Positions 5,338 to 24,195 of a stretch of 64,000 nucleotides of DNA are shown piece after piece. Position numbers and translations under genes: made by a program. Every line of letters begins with the position of its first letter. The first letter of the stretch is position 1. Under the pieces are notes generated by a model, which made no database searches, was not told where the DNA came from, and saw nothing but the letters and a program-made list of their open reading frames with translations. The stretch is from Chloroflexota bacterium (GTDB taxonomy: Bacteria; Chloroflexota; Anaerolineae; UBA4142; SHND01), in NCBI GenBank assembly GCA_029778615.1, contig JAKOPZ010000126.1, positions 1 to 64,000 of the forward strand. Direction: 5' to 3'.

Positions 5338-6726
5338 TTATTGTAACAGCGGATCGATTTTCGCGGCCGCGTCGTCGAGTGCGGCTTGGGGTGTTTTTTC
5401 ACCGCGCAGGATTTCTTGTCCTGCGTTGGTCAAGATTTCTTCAATCTTGGGCCAATTCGGATGCGGCAAGCGCGCGCGTGAAGTTTTGATCTGGTCAAAG
5501 AAATATTGAAAGTACGGCTGCGCCTTGACCGCCTGGTCGGCAACGTCACTGCGCACCGGCATTTCACCCACTTGGGCGAGCGCGAGCTGTGATTCCGGCG
5601 TCAACAAAAAGCGCATGAACTCGTACGCCATTTCTTTGTTTTTGGATTGTTGAAATACGGCAATGTCTTCGCCGCCGACCACCGAAATCGAACCCGCAGG
5701 GCCCGCAGGCATGAGCGCCCAATTCAACGTCTTGGTGGGATATTGACTTGCGAAAATTCCCGGCATCCACGGGCCTTCGAGCAAGCTCGCGATTTTGTCT
5801 TGCGCGAAACCCGCCCCCGTATCCAGTCCGCCGCCGAGAATGCCTTTGTCGAGGTACCCTCTATCGAGCATTTGTTTGAGATACATGTACGCGCCAACCG
5901 TTTTTTCACCGTTCACGAATCCGGTCGCTTTCGTTTTTTCAGGATTCGTCACATCACCGCCGAACGACCAAATCCACGGCATAACTGCCCAGCCGTACAA
6001 GCCGCCATCGGCAAAACACGGCGCGTTCGCGCCGCTCTTGATTTTCGCGCACGCGGCGAGCAATTCGTCCGTCGTTTTCGGCGGCGCGCTGACACCGGCT
6101 TTGTCGTATACCTCTTTGTTCCACATCCATGTGCGCGTATTCGTATCGAGCGGCAGCGCGTAATAGTGTCCCTTCCATTCGGTTGTGGACAACGGACCCG
6201 CAATCAAGTTCGCTTTGAGGGCATCGAAATCTTTCATCTCGGTGTCCACTTGCGCGAGCGCGCCGAGGTCCGCAAACTCGGGAATCCAAATAATATCGAG
6301 ACGCGCAAGGTCGGGCGCAGTGCCGCCCGCAATCGAAGTCAACAGTTTGCGTCGAAAATCGCCGTACGGAACATTTTGATGTTGGATGGTCACGCCGGGA
6401 TGCGCGGCTTGAAACTGCGCGATTAATTTTTCAAGCGCTTGAATTTTGGGATTGTTGCCGCCTTCTCCGTACGTGTGCCAAAAAGTCAACGTGACGGGCG
6501 CGGCGGTTGTGGGCGCGGGCGTCGCGGGAACGACGACGGTTTGTTGGGCAACCACAGTTTGGGGTACGGCGACCGTCTGGGGTACGGCGACGGTTTGTTG
6601 TACGACAACGGTTTGTGGAACGACGACCGTTTGTGGAACGGGTGGTGGCGGCGTCGCAGGCGTACCGCATGCCATCAAAACGATAGACAGCAAGATGCCT
6701 CCGACCAGAATATGAATCTGCTTCAT
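5338..6726 (-). CDS. Sugar ABC transporter substrate-binding lipoprotein
   Basis: This 462-residue extracytoplasmic solute-binding protein belongs to family 1 (MalE-like). The signal peptide MKQIHILVGGILLSIVLMAC ends in a lipobox with Cys20 as the lipid anchor. Residues 30-70 form a low-complexity linker of repeated PQTVVV/QQTVAV units, encoded by near-identical direct repeats at about 6535-6650. The binding domain begins with VTLTFWHTYGEGGNNPKIQA and shows typical ligand-lobe segments (WNKEVYDKAGV, GPWMPGIF, MAYEFMRFLLTPESQLALAQ). GGAGGAG stands 8 bases before the ATG. It is the first gene of the operon and should deliver oligosaccharides to the two permeases. Confidence 0.93.
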   Translation of the reverse strand: MKQIHILVGGILLSIVLMACGTPATPPPPVPQTVVVPQTVVVQQTVAVPQTVAVPQTVVAQQTVVVPATPAPTTAAPVTLTFWHTYGEGGNNPKIQALEKLIAQFQAAHPGVTIQHQNVPYGDFRRKLLTSIAGGTAPDLARLDIIWIPEFADLGALAQVDTEMKDFDALKANLIAGPLSTTEWKGHYYALPLDTNTRTWMWNKEVYDKAGVSAPPKTTDELLAACAKIKSGANAPCFADGGLYGWAVMPWIWSFGGDVTNPEKTKATGFVNGEKTVGAYMYLKQMLDRGYLDKGILGGGLDTGAGFAQDKIASLLEGPWMPGIFASQYPTKTLNWALMPAGPAGSISVVGGEDIAVFQQSKNKEMAYEFMRFLLTPESQLALAQVGEMPVRSDVADQAVKAQPYFQYFFDQIKTSRARLPHPNWPKIEEILTNAGQEILRGEKTPQAALDDAAAKIDPLLQ

Positions 6727-6813
6727 GGAATCTTCTCCTCCTTGGAATCTTTGACGTACCGGGTGAAATTTAAGACGGGCACTCGTGCAAGGGGCTGCCT
6801 CCTTTCCACTTTA

Positions 6814-22780: not shown

Positions 22781-23080
22781 ATGAAGCGAGCATTGTTTGT
22801 CTTTCTGGCGGTGGCGATTTTGTTGACCGTGATTGCCCCGCTGGCAACGACGGCAAAGGCGGACGGTCCGTGGGGCTATGGTTACGGATACGGTTACGTC
22901 TATCCGGGTTCGGGCTATAACAAAGTCTGTATGTACAGTTACTGGAACTGTTCGTACCGCTTTGTCCCGCCGTATCCGGTTTCGGGCTATTACCAATATC
23001 CGTACAACACGTACTATCGCCAAAACACCCCGTACTACAATCCCAATTGGTGCACACCCGGTTTGTACTGCGGTTATTAA
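22781..23080 (+). CDS. Small secreted Tyr/Gly/Pro-rich protein
   Basis: The 99-residue product has a clear Sec signal peptide (MKRALFVFLAVAILLTVIAP, cleavage probably after AKA near residue 28). The mature part of about 70 residues has some 20 tyrosines (YGYGYGYVYPGSGYN, YYQYPYNTYY) and four cysteines (VCMY, NCSY, WCTP, YCGY) that could form two disulfides. GAGGAGGTGA lies 6 bases before the ATG. It is transcribed alone with a structured leader. Tyr-rich secreted peptides can be surface or matrix components; no family is recognised. Confidence 0.7.
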   Translation: MKRALFVFLAVAILLTVIAPLATTAKADGPWGYGYGYGYVYPGSGYNKVCMYSYWNCSYRFVPPYPVSGYYQYPYNTYYRQNTPYYNPNWCTPGLYCGY

Positions 23081-23203
23081 TTCACCTTACGCATGTCATT
23101 TCGAACCCCTCAATCCTTCGGGGTAAACTCTGTGAGAAATGTCAGTTTTTTCCACCGAGATTTCTCGCAAGACCGCTCGAAATGACAATTCTGCGTAACA
23201 TGA
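23081..23203. mobile_element. MITE family B, copy 1 (123 bp)
   Basis: The element is bounded by an 8-base target duplication GTTATTAA (23073-23080 and 23204-23211). The ends TCACCTTACGCA and TCATGTTACGCA form imperfect inverted repeats around the shared core TGTCATTTCGA. An inverted copy of the same length lies at 28825-28947. The left duplication contains the TAA stop of the secreted-peptide gene, so the gene is unharmed. It encodes no protein. Confidence 0.85.
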
Positions 23204-23254
23204 GTTATTAAATCTACCGTCCCGAACAGGGGCAAAATGCCACTCGCAAGAATG

Positions 23255-23288
23255 CAACCGCCGAACACCCTCGGCGGTTGTTTTTTTT
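23255..23288 (+). terminator. Intrinsic terminator
   Basis: CAACCGCCGA pairs with TCGGCGGTTG across a 6-base loop and is followed by eight T. It probably ends the secreted-peptide transcript beyond the inserted MITE. Confidence 0.85.
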
Positions 23289-23414
23289 GTGGAGACTGTT
23301 TGGGATTGCGGTGCGTCTCCTAATCCCACGCGTGCGATTTTTTTTACAGGCAGAGATTTTTTGTGCGCTTGCAAGAATAAGACAAGAGTACGTGCGAATG
23401 TATCGGTTTTTTGC

Positions 23415-23443
23415 TTGACAAGCATTTTGATTCGTGATATACA
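23415..23443 (+). promoter_or_regulatory. Strong promoter of the c-di-AMP riboswitch transcript
   Basis: TTGACA (23415-23420) and TATACA (23438-23443) are spaced by exactly 17 bases. Transcription would begin near 23450, about 32 bases before the riboswitch P1 stem. Confidence 0.8.
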
Positions 23444-23481
23444 ATTTTTGCGACGTGAGTGTCGTCTACAATCGAATATTT

Positions 23482-23623
23482 CTTGTCAGCCGAGTCTCTG
23501 AGACAGGTCAGAGAGCGGAGGAACCACTTACGGGGTGAATTGCGAATCCAAAAAACCGATTCCCAAGGAACATCTTTCAGTTCTAACCCGACAGCTAACT
23601 TCGTAGGCAGTGAAAGGGACAAG
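23482..23623 (+). ncRNA. Cyclic di-AMP riboswitch (ydaO/yuaA class)
   Basis: The conserved core is visible: AGCGGAGGAACCACTTACGG, then GGGGTGAAT, and AACCCGACAGCTAACTTCGT followed by AGGCAGTGAAAGG. These match the GGAGGAACC, GGGGUnAAU and CCGACAGCUAACnnCGnAGGC segments of the ydaO class. The closing P1 stem is CTTGTC (23482-23487) with GACAAG (23618-23623). In this class c-di-AMP binding usually turns expression off, mostly of wall-hydrolase, potassium or osmolyte genes. A terminator follows 12 bases later. No protein gene is apparent between it and tRNA-Phe, so its target is unknown. Confidence 0.85.
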
Positions 23624-23634
23624 TCTGGAGCCGT

Positions 23635-23663
23635 GACCACAGATTTGACCTGTGGTCTTTTTT
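23635..23663 (+). terminator. Expression-platform terminator of the riboswitch
   Basis: GACCACAG pairs with CTGTGGTC across a 7-base loop and is followed by six T. It begins 11 bases after P1, where c-di-AMP-controlled termination is expected. Confidence 0.85.
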
Positions 23664-23727
23664 GTTTGGACGGTTTTTCGTCCGCGACGCGGGCGCGCGT
23701 CGGCGCAAGCAACAGAATTGAGAGCAT

Positions 23728-23761
23728 GGGCTGTGACTTGACCAAGTCGGCAGCCCTTTTT
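23728..23761 (+). terminator. Second terminator-like hairpin downstream of the riboswitch
   Basis: GGGCTG and CAGCCC close a stem whose inner part GACTT/AAGTC also pairs, followed by five T. It lies about 65 bases after the first riboswitch terminator. Confidence 0.6.
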
Positions 23762-23885
23762 CTTTCAGACGCACGAGTGAGGATTGACCTCACCGGCACG
23801 TTTACAACGCACTTCTTCTCCTCCTTTTCGAAAGGTTATCTCCTCGCATCGGCGTCTGTGTGGGGAGATAACCGCGACCGCAAGC
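23762..23885 (+). ncRNA. Possible structured RNA of unknown class
   Basis: Between two terminators lie GTGAGG/CCTCAC (23777-23782/23788-23793) and a 10-bp stem GGTTATCTCC/GGAGATAACC (23834-23843/23864-23873). The loop of the latter contains GCGTCTG (23852-23858), complementary to CAGACGC at 23766-23772, which would form a pseudoknot. No convincing protein frame covers the region. Pairings were found by eye, with no covariation test, so the call is tentative. Confidence 0.35.
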
Positions 23886-23936
23886 CGCGCTGCTTGGTTC
23901 ATCCACGGTGATGAACCAGCAGCGCGATTTTTTTTT
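23886..23936 (+). terminator. Strong terminator ending the riboswitch region
   Basis: CGCGCTGCTTGGTTCATC pairs with GATGAACCAGCAGCGCG, with one bulged T and a 6-base loop, followed by nine T. Confidence 0.9.
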
Positions 23937-23962
23937 GACAGCGCGCCCAAACTGAATACAAT

Positions 23963-24102
23963 ACCTAATGTGCAACACTTTTGTCATTTCGAGCGGAGCG
24001 AGAAATCTCGCAAGGCGCGAATGAGATTTCTCGCAAAACTTGTCCCGAAGCATTGAGGGAACGGCTCGAAATGACATTTGTCCCGCGAAAGAGTTGCACA
24101 TT
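23963..24102. mobile_element. MITE family C (about 140 bp) next to tRNA-Phe
   Basis: The ends AATGTGCAAC and GTTGCACATT are perfect inverted repeats of 10 bases. Inside are the TGTCATTTCGAGC core in both orientations and a GAGATTTCTCGC palindrome, as in families A and B. Flanks GAATACAAT (23954-23962) and GAGTACAAT (24103-24111) agree in 8 of 9 bases, consistent with an older target duplication. The right flank contains TACAAT, which may be the tRNA -10 box. Confidence 0.7.
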
Positions 24103-24122
24103 GAGTACAATGTCCGTTGCGC

Positions 24123-24195
24123 GCCGAGATAGCTCAGTTGGTAGAGCATGCGGCTGAAAACCGCAGTGTCCGCAGTTCGATTCTGCGTCTCGGCA
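24123..24195 (+). tRNA. tRNA-Phe (GAA)
   Basis: The 73-base cloverleaf has acceptor stem GCCGAGA/TCTCGGC, D arm GCTC...GAGC, anticodon stem TGCGG/CCGCA with loop CTGAAAA (anticodon GAA), T arm CGCAG TTCGATT CTGCG, and discriminator A. CCA is not encoded. Confidence 0.96.

Follow-up and report, generated by a model that had tools for sequence, protein, structure and literature searches.

The orphan riboswitch and its surroundings

The window, by which we mean the whole 64,000-nt stretch of DNA analysed, carries on its forward strand a cyclic di-AMP (c-di-AMP) riboswitch that an earlier, sequence-only reading had described as lacking a recognisable target gene. That reading had seen a ydaO-class aptamer together with a promoter and a terminator, and all three are confirmed. 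The covariance search that it had proposed, run over both strands of the 64 kb, aligned the RF00379 model over its full length (model positions 1–134) and well above the gathering score (E = 1.5e-14), making the aptamer a clear member of the class. The promoter hexamers are TTGACA (23415–23420) and TATACA (23438–23443), and a TTGACA...TATA/TACA box lies upstream of all 17 homologous riboswitches compared here. The statement that no target gene follows stands for proteins only: there is no credible open reading frame before the tRNA-Phe gene, but a conserved, unannotated small RNA (sRNA) at about 23812–23936 adjoins the switch. The features of the locus are the following.

23415..23443, +: sigma-70 type promoter, TTGACA - 17 nt - TATACA (sequence reading)
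23478..23624, +: c-di-AMP (ydaO/yuaA) riboswitch aptamer (RF00379, 71.3 bits against a gathering score of 38)
23616..23628, +: switching strand GGGACAAGTCTGG (alternative folds in 17/17 homologues)
23635..23663, +: intrinsic terminator 1, read as riboswitch-controlled (terminator scan; conserved in the genus)
23728..23765, +: second terminator-like hairpin, GGGCTG...CAGCCC with a T-rich tail (alignment; five of six genus members)
23812..23936, +: proposed small RNA, the 3' module of a read-through transcript (conservation; model R1)
23812..23831, +: unpaired anti-Shine-Dalgarno seed CTTCTTCTCCTCCTTTTCGA (identity in 16 sequences; fold)
23834..23873, +: sRNA hairpin with a conserved TCGGCGTCTG loop (covariation)
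23886..23936, +: sRNA terminator, 8-bp G+C stem base and T run (fold and sequence)
24123..24195, +: tRNA-Phe, a neighbouring gene that does not belong to the unit (in several genomes of the sister family f2 the sRNA is followed by other genes)

The six genomes of the genus share one order of elements: the riboswitch, a few hundred non-coding nucleotides, tRNA-Phe and a DUF4013 gene, with a Tyr-rich small ORF upstream of the riboswitch wherever that region is readable. The terminator region that follows this ORF (22781–23080 in the window) lies at 23222–23289, is conserved in the genus and carries a GCCACTYGC motif; it scores 34.4 bits against Rfam STnc240, under the gathering score of 55, and is possibly an RNA derived from the 3'UTR. 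Palindromic repeats of the form TGTCATTTCGAGC...GCTCGAAATGACA occur at 23089–23190 and 23962–24107, the latter as an insertion that separates the tRNA-Phe gene from its promoter and is missing at that place in five relatives.

Predicted switching between exclusive folds

The switching strand can enter two structures. It either extends the P1 helix by pairing with CTTGTC on the 5' side of the aptamer, or it pairs with the 5' arm and loop of terminator 1 as an antiterminator; in the genus, the antiterminator strand reads GGGACAAGTCTG and sits immediately 3' of P1. The terminator 1 hairpin spans 23635–23657 and is followed by a T run that is weak in two of the six genus genomes. When the RNA 3' of the aptamer was folded, antiterminator and terminator excluded each other at all 17 loci, and the terminator could form instead of the antiterminator once its 3' arm was added to the folded RNA. 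Both antiterminator strands of locus L024 have lost one base in matching, length-compensating fashion, and L362 builds the same switch design from unrelated sequence (GAGTGGC/GCCACTC). The riboswitch possesses an expression platform of mutually exclusive folds, and c-di-AMP binding to the aptamer at 23478–23624 is predicted to change transcription. Because the switching strand also extends P1 (CTTGTC/GACAAG), ligand binding should free the terminator, implying an OFF switch, a mode known for this riboswitch class in Bacillus. The second terminator-like hairpin further downstream, whose hairpin proper spans 23728–23756 in the window, is absent in genome G005 of the genus.

A proposed small RNA behind the switch

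Past the terminator, the region 23812–23936 ranks with the best conserved parts of the locus. Across the six genus genomes, 58 of the 65 positions in the block CTTCTTCTCCTCCTTTTCGAAAGGTTATCTCCTCGCATCGGCGTCTGTGTGGGGAGATAACCGCG (23812–23876) are invariant, and strong matches to model R1 are confined to the order, where 16 genomes have one. The window's genome contains only one copy of the block, which rejects a repeat or mobile element. A known RNA family was likewise rejected as its identity: searching the window against Rfam at E values up to 10 returned nothing credible at the sRNA, and the sRNA of six other sources had no Rfam match either.

The sRNA is built of three parts. First, it begins with a 20-nt unpaired stretch, CUUCUUCUCCUCCUUUUCGA, that is the complement of Shine-Dalgarno sequences; nucleotides 1–19 of this seed are identical in 16 of 16 sequences and nucleotide 20 in 15 of 16. 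The mean unpaired probability of the seed is 0.89 when the sRNA is folded alone versus 0.37 in the full read-through RNA, so the proposal has to assume either processing of the transcript or folding during transcription. Second, the hairpin that follows shows two-sided compensatory changes at 10 of its 15 pairs among the 16 sequences, a count reached by none of 500 shuffles, and 95.7% of cells are paired versus 86.5% in the shuffles; the MAFFT alignment of the hairpin misplaced two sequences, so the compensatory count is probably conservative. Third, the stem of the closing terminator is maintained while its sequence diverges. The suggestion, made from the sequence alone, that the switch might regulate an unannotated RNA is supported by this conservation and covariation, as well as by the invariable linkage to the riboswitch described below.

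Predicted targets

The best candidate target inside the window lies far from the riboswitch, on the opposite strand.

6731..6743, -: predicted target site AAGGAGGAGAAGA, the Shine-Dalgarno sequence of the ABC substrate-binding lipoprotein gene 5338–6726 (seed duplex)

The duplex of the seed with this site has an energy of -22.7 kcal/mol, the best among 60 ORFs of the window, the runner-up reaching -16.1. The gene (5338–6726, -) matches Pfam SBP_bac_1 at 5.4e-41, is of the sugar type and adjoins a permease gene. Few sites in the genus carry AAAGGAGGAGAA, the reverse complement of the seed: there are 11 besides the sRNA itself. Nearly all are Shine-Dalgarno sequences, most of them belonging to genes for ABC substrate-binding lipoproteins, and AapJ-type genes are among them in three genomes. 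Extra 13-mer sites in f2 again lie mainly upstream of substrate-binding proteins. When the 1832 genes in 2.17 Mb of genome G003 were ranked by complementarity of their start sites to the seed, the top 30 held 11 of the 60 long lipoproteins (hypergeometric 6e-10). The same ranking gave 0 for the 16S anti-Shine-Dalgarno sequence, at most 7 for 120 shuffled seeds and at most 10 for 120 shuffles that kept the core. All ten of the G003 candidates run against Pfam were ABC substrate-binding proteins. At aapJ, start sites in seed-bearing genomes with a readable start reach -16.6 to -25.5 kcal/mol.

Two results temper this signal. Seed-free genomes also keep fairly strong complementarity at aapJ (G012, -21.1; G010, -19.1), and the shift towards lipoproteins becomes modest after regression on anti-Shine-Dalgarno strength (p = 0.012); part of the target signal may therefore reflect a general style of Shine-Dalgarno sequence. 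The presence or absence of an exact 13-mer complement proved uninformative as a test for targets, although it exposed sRNA variants that lack the exact 18-mer. The predicted targets are the start sites of ABC substrate-binding lipoproteins, including the one in the window and, in relatives, AapJ and LivJ-type proteins, and these mRNAs would be repressed by base pairing.

A different use of the same RNA has to be weighed here, in which the RNA is real and under riboswitch control, with a pyrimidine tract that serves as a decoy or sponge for a protein or the ribosome instead of pairing with individual mRNAs. The element CCUCCUUU is identical to the core of the 16S rRNA anti-Shine-Dalgarno sequence, binding to one protein could account for a near-invariant seed too, and the genomes of family f16 have the exact 13-mer complement only at the sRNA itself. 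Set against these points, the real seed ranks more substrate-binding lipoproteins than any of the 240 control seeds, and known anti-Shine-Dalgarno sRNAs of similar layout target mRNAs (AbcR1/2, PMC8844928; LhrC, PMC4132741). We consider a decoy unlikely, and favour a seed that would pair with individual mRNAs.

Linkage of switch and small RNA

A c-di-AMP riboswitch is present in 16 of 20 genomes of the order, and in all 16 the sRNA lies directly behind one such switch. The four genomes without the riboswitch (G009, G010, G012 and G015, one of them 97% complete) also lack the seed, with neither an exact seed nor a model R1 match. A 17th case occurs outside the order, at L362 in family f31, where the riboswitch scores 95.7 bits and the core lies 89 nt from the seed. 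Behind five more riboswitches in these genomes there is no sRNA block, and for the most part ordinary genes come next (L002, L009, L027 and L028, read by eye; L008 unclear). In f2, the gene after the sRNA varies from tRNA-Phe followed by tRNA-Gly to a caspase-like gene or a lipoprotein gene. Since the downstream genes differ, what stays with the switch throughout is the sRNA block and not the gene that comes after it. Action in trans had also been suggested for the orphan; it is the sRNA behind the switch that is probably trans-acting.

In 12 of the 17 loci the gap between terminator arm and seed core is only 15–28 nt (15–25 nt in G005 and each of the ten f2 loci, 28 nt at L362). So short a gap could hardly hold another promoter and suggests that the sRNA is made by read-through, at least in those 12 loci. 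A conserved non-coding RNA lies behind the switch, and at the same 12 of 17 loci it would have no promoter of its own. The spacing, like the constant linkage, also tells against a scheme in which the short, terminated riboswitch RNA itself acts in trans and the 3' module is a separate gene. A riboswitch RNA of this kind has a precedent in the Listeria SAM riboswitch RNA acting on prfA (cited in PMC7266159), yet we find the scheme improbable at this locus.

Read-through might instead serve tRNA-Phe or the DUF4013 gene, which lie beyond the sRNA, and tRNA-Phe does follow in six of six genus members and in several f2 genomes. A strong terminator closes the sRNA, tRNA-Phe has its own TTGACA...TACAAT box, and L017, L018, L019 and L021 have no tRNA-Phe downstream in the DNA read. 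Control of tRNA-Phe or later genes, rejected because the downstream genes vary, is given slightly less credence still. A small peptide encoded 3' of the switch, allowed for in the sequence-only reading and superficially matched by short chance ORFs, is scarcely credible: no combination of start codon, Shine-Dalgarno sequence and reading frame is common to the 17 sequences, and the sequence changes track base pairing. A relic switch that has outlived its gene, a reading in line with the lack of a downstream protein gene, is equally implausible; it is already contradicted, since 16 of the order's genomes and one outside the order retain the aptamer, the promoter and the mutually exclusive folds.

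Proposed mechanism and known systems

We propose, with a probability of roughly 0.7 and from sequence comparison, that the locus encodes one non-coding transcript of two modules, a c-di-AMP riboswitch and, past its terminator, a trans-acting anti-Shine-Dalgarno sRNA that represses ABC substrate-binding lipoproteins. With c-di-AMP bound, the extended P1 would hold GACAAG, no antiterminator would form and transcription would end at 23663 (OFF). At low c-di-AMP, the switching strand would pair with the 5' arm and loop of the terminator, and the polymerase would read through. The sRNA would then accumulate, possibly after being cut free, and its exposed seed could pair with extended Shine-Dalgarno sequences AAGGAGGAGAAG and block translation, most likely of the mRNAs of ABC importer substrate-binding lipoproteins. 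The level of the sRNA in the cell is accordingly a c-di-AMP-dependent quantity in prediction. The sequences themselves show the aptamer, the exclusive folds, the linkage, the covariation and the lack of an ORF; the direction of switching, the read-through, the pairing, the repression and the choice of targets are inferred. A motif search for a c-di-AMP synthase gene in 2.17 Mb of G003 found none.

Riboswitch-controlled sRNAs are already known; to our knowledge, c-di-AMP as their input would be new. The riboswitch-containing sRNAs of the DebRoy and Mellin groups, said to be Rli55/EutX of the cobalamin class, reportedly sense cobalamin and act by sequestering a response-regulator protein. They resemble the locus described here in that a riboswitch decides the completion of a trans-acting RNA, and differ from it in that the window sRNA has a c-di-AMP input and a predicted mRNA-pairing seed. 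We know of no c-di-AMP riboswitch with a trans-acting sRNA as its output, and none controlling an sRNA was found in the literature searched. Both earlier studies (DebRoy et al. 2014; Mellin et al. 2014) are cited in PMC7266159. Known c-di-AMP riboswitches precede protein genes, for example those encoding transporters of K+ and amino acids or proteins of the cell wall (PMC7266159). The window copy scores as an RF00379 member and shares their terminator/antiterminator platform, but precedes a non-coding RNA.

By presumed mode of action, two further groups come closest. AbcR1 and AbcR2 of alpha-rhizobia carry the anti-Shine-Dalgarno motifs CUCCUCCC and UUCCCCUC; through these they silence ABC transporter mRNAs, livK among them, and also target the aapJQMP operon (PMC8844928). 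The window sRNA is like them in its CUCCUCCC motif and in having ABC transporter mRNAs as predicted targets, its seed being complementary to the starts of ABC substrate-binding proteins. AbcR1/AbcR2 are controlled by LsrB and RpoH1 and, unlike the window sRNA, have no riboswitch control. With no Rfam match, the window sRNA is not a member of the AbcR (alpha-r15) family and would be an analogue. LhrC of Listeria and the csRNAs of streptococci place C/U-rich or anti-Shine-Dalgarno unpaired regions beside stem-loops and depend on two-component systems (PMC4132741, PMC3091779); they show no sequence homology to the window copy, which has a riboswitch instead. By the tests made, none of these RNAs, nor the riboswitch-containing sRNAs, is a homologue.

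If the proposal is true, this would be the first c-di-AMP riboswitch known to us with a trans-acting sRNA as output, through which one second messenger reaches many unlinked genes via RNA alone. It would also explain the orphan riboswitch, and suggests re-reading other riboswitches that lack a gene.

A proposed wider family in Anaerolineae

The exact 18-nt seed occurs once each in 30 of 396 genomes of the class, against one match in the table for the reversed pattern, and a search of 400 genomes of the phylum found no case outside the class. Fifteen of the 30 genomes lie outside the order, and in all 15 the seed is followed by a G+C hairpin and accompanied by no riboswitch. Nearly all of these riboswitch-free copies have an upstream box, CGTAGG-N5-CGTAGG-N5-CGTCC or a variant, with the 11-bp spacing seen for response regulators (at L130, too little upstream DNA is available to judge). 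The box resembles the CiaR site, TTTAAG-N5-TTTAAG (PMC4132741, PMC3091779). Relaxed seeds revealed further sRNA copies in genomes that had seemed negative, including L362. Elsewhere in Anaerolineae, then, RNAs with the same seed are mostly without a riboswitch and usually carry the repeated CGTA promoter box, and L362 places the riboswitch input in at least two clades; this input is either ancestral or was acquired twice.

We give even odds to the broader reading that an anti-Shine-Dalgarno sRNA family spans Anaerolineae with exchangeable inputs, mostly a transcription-factor box and, in at least two lineages (the window's order and f31), a c-di-AMP riboswitch, by which c-di-AMP would set ABC nutrient import via an RNA-to-RNA relay. 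If so, it would offer an evolutionary case of one type of sRNA carrying different sensors, and would give a large class that is mostly uncultured a proposed family of regulatory sRNAs along with predicted targets.

Several observations accompany this survey. Outside Chloroflexota, the hairpin is missing from almost every exact-seed match, and these matches seem to reflect chance or coding sequence. The exception, L079:3799-3880 on a Candidatus Gottesmanbacteria contig, has the same 18-nt seed, a strong hairpin and a T run, and could reflect transfer, convergence or a binning error. Across L129-L141, three 11-bp direct repeats (CGTAGG..CGTAGG..CGTCC) upstream of the seeds suggest that the copies lacking a riboswitch have a dedicated response regulator. 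At L139, L140 and L345, a structured leader closed by GGCATGG...CCATGCC lies ~100 nt upstream of the seed, matches no Rfam family and is possibly another sensor; L139 also carries a 6S RNA (RF00013, 69.8 bits) at 750-930, ~570 nt from its seed sRNA. Two genomes of family f45 each hold at least two such sRNAs (G281: L127, L338 and L365; G239: L128 and L339), which differ in their seed ends and terminators.
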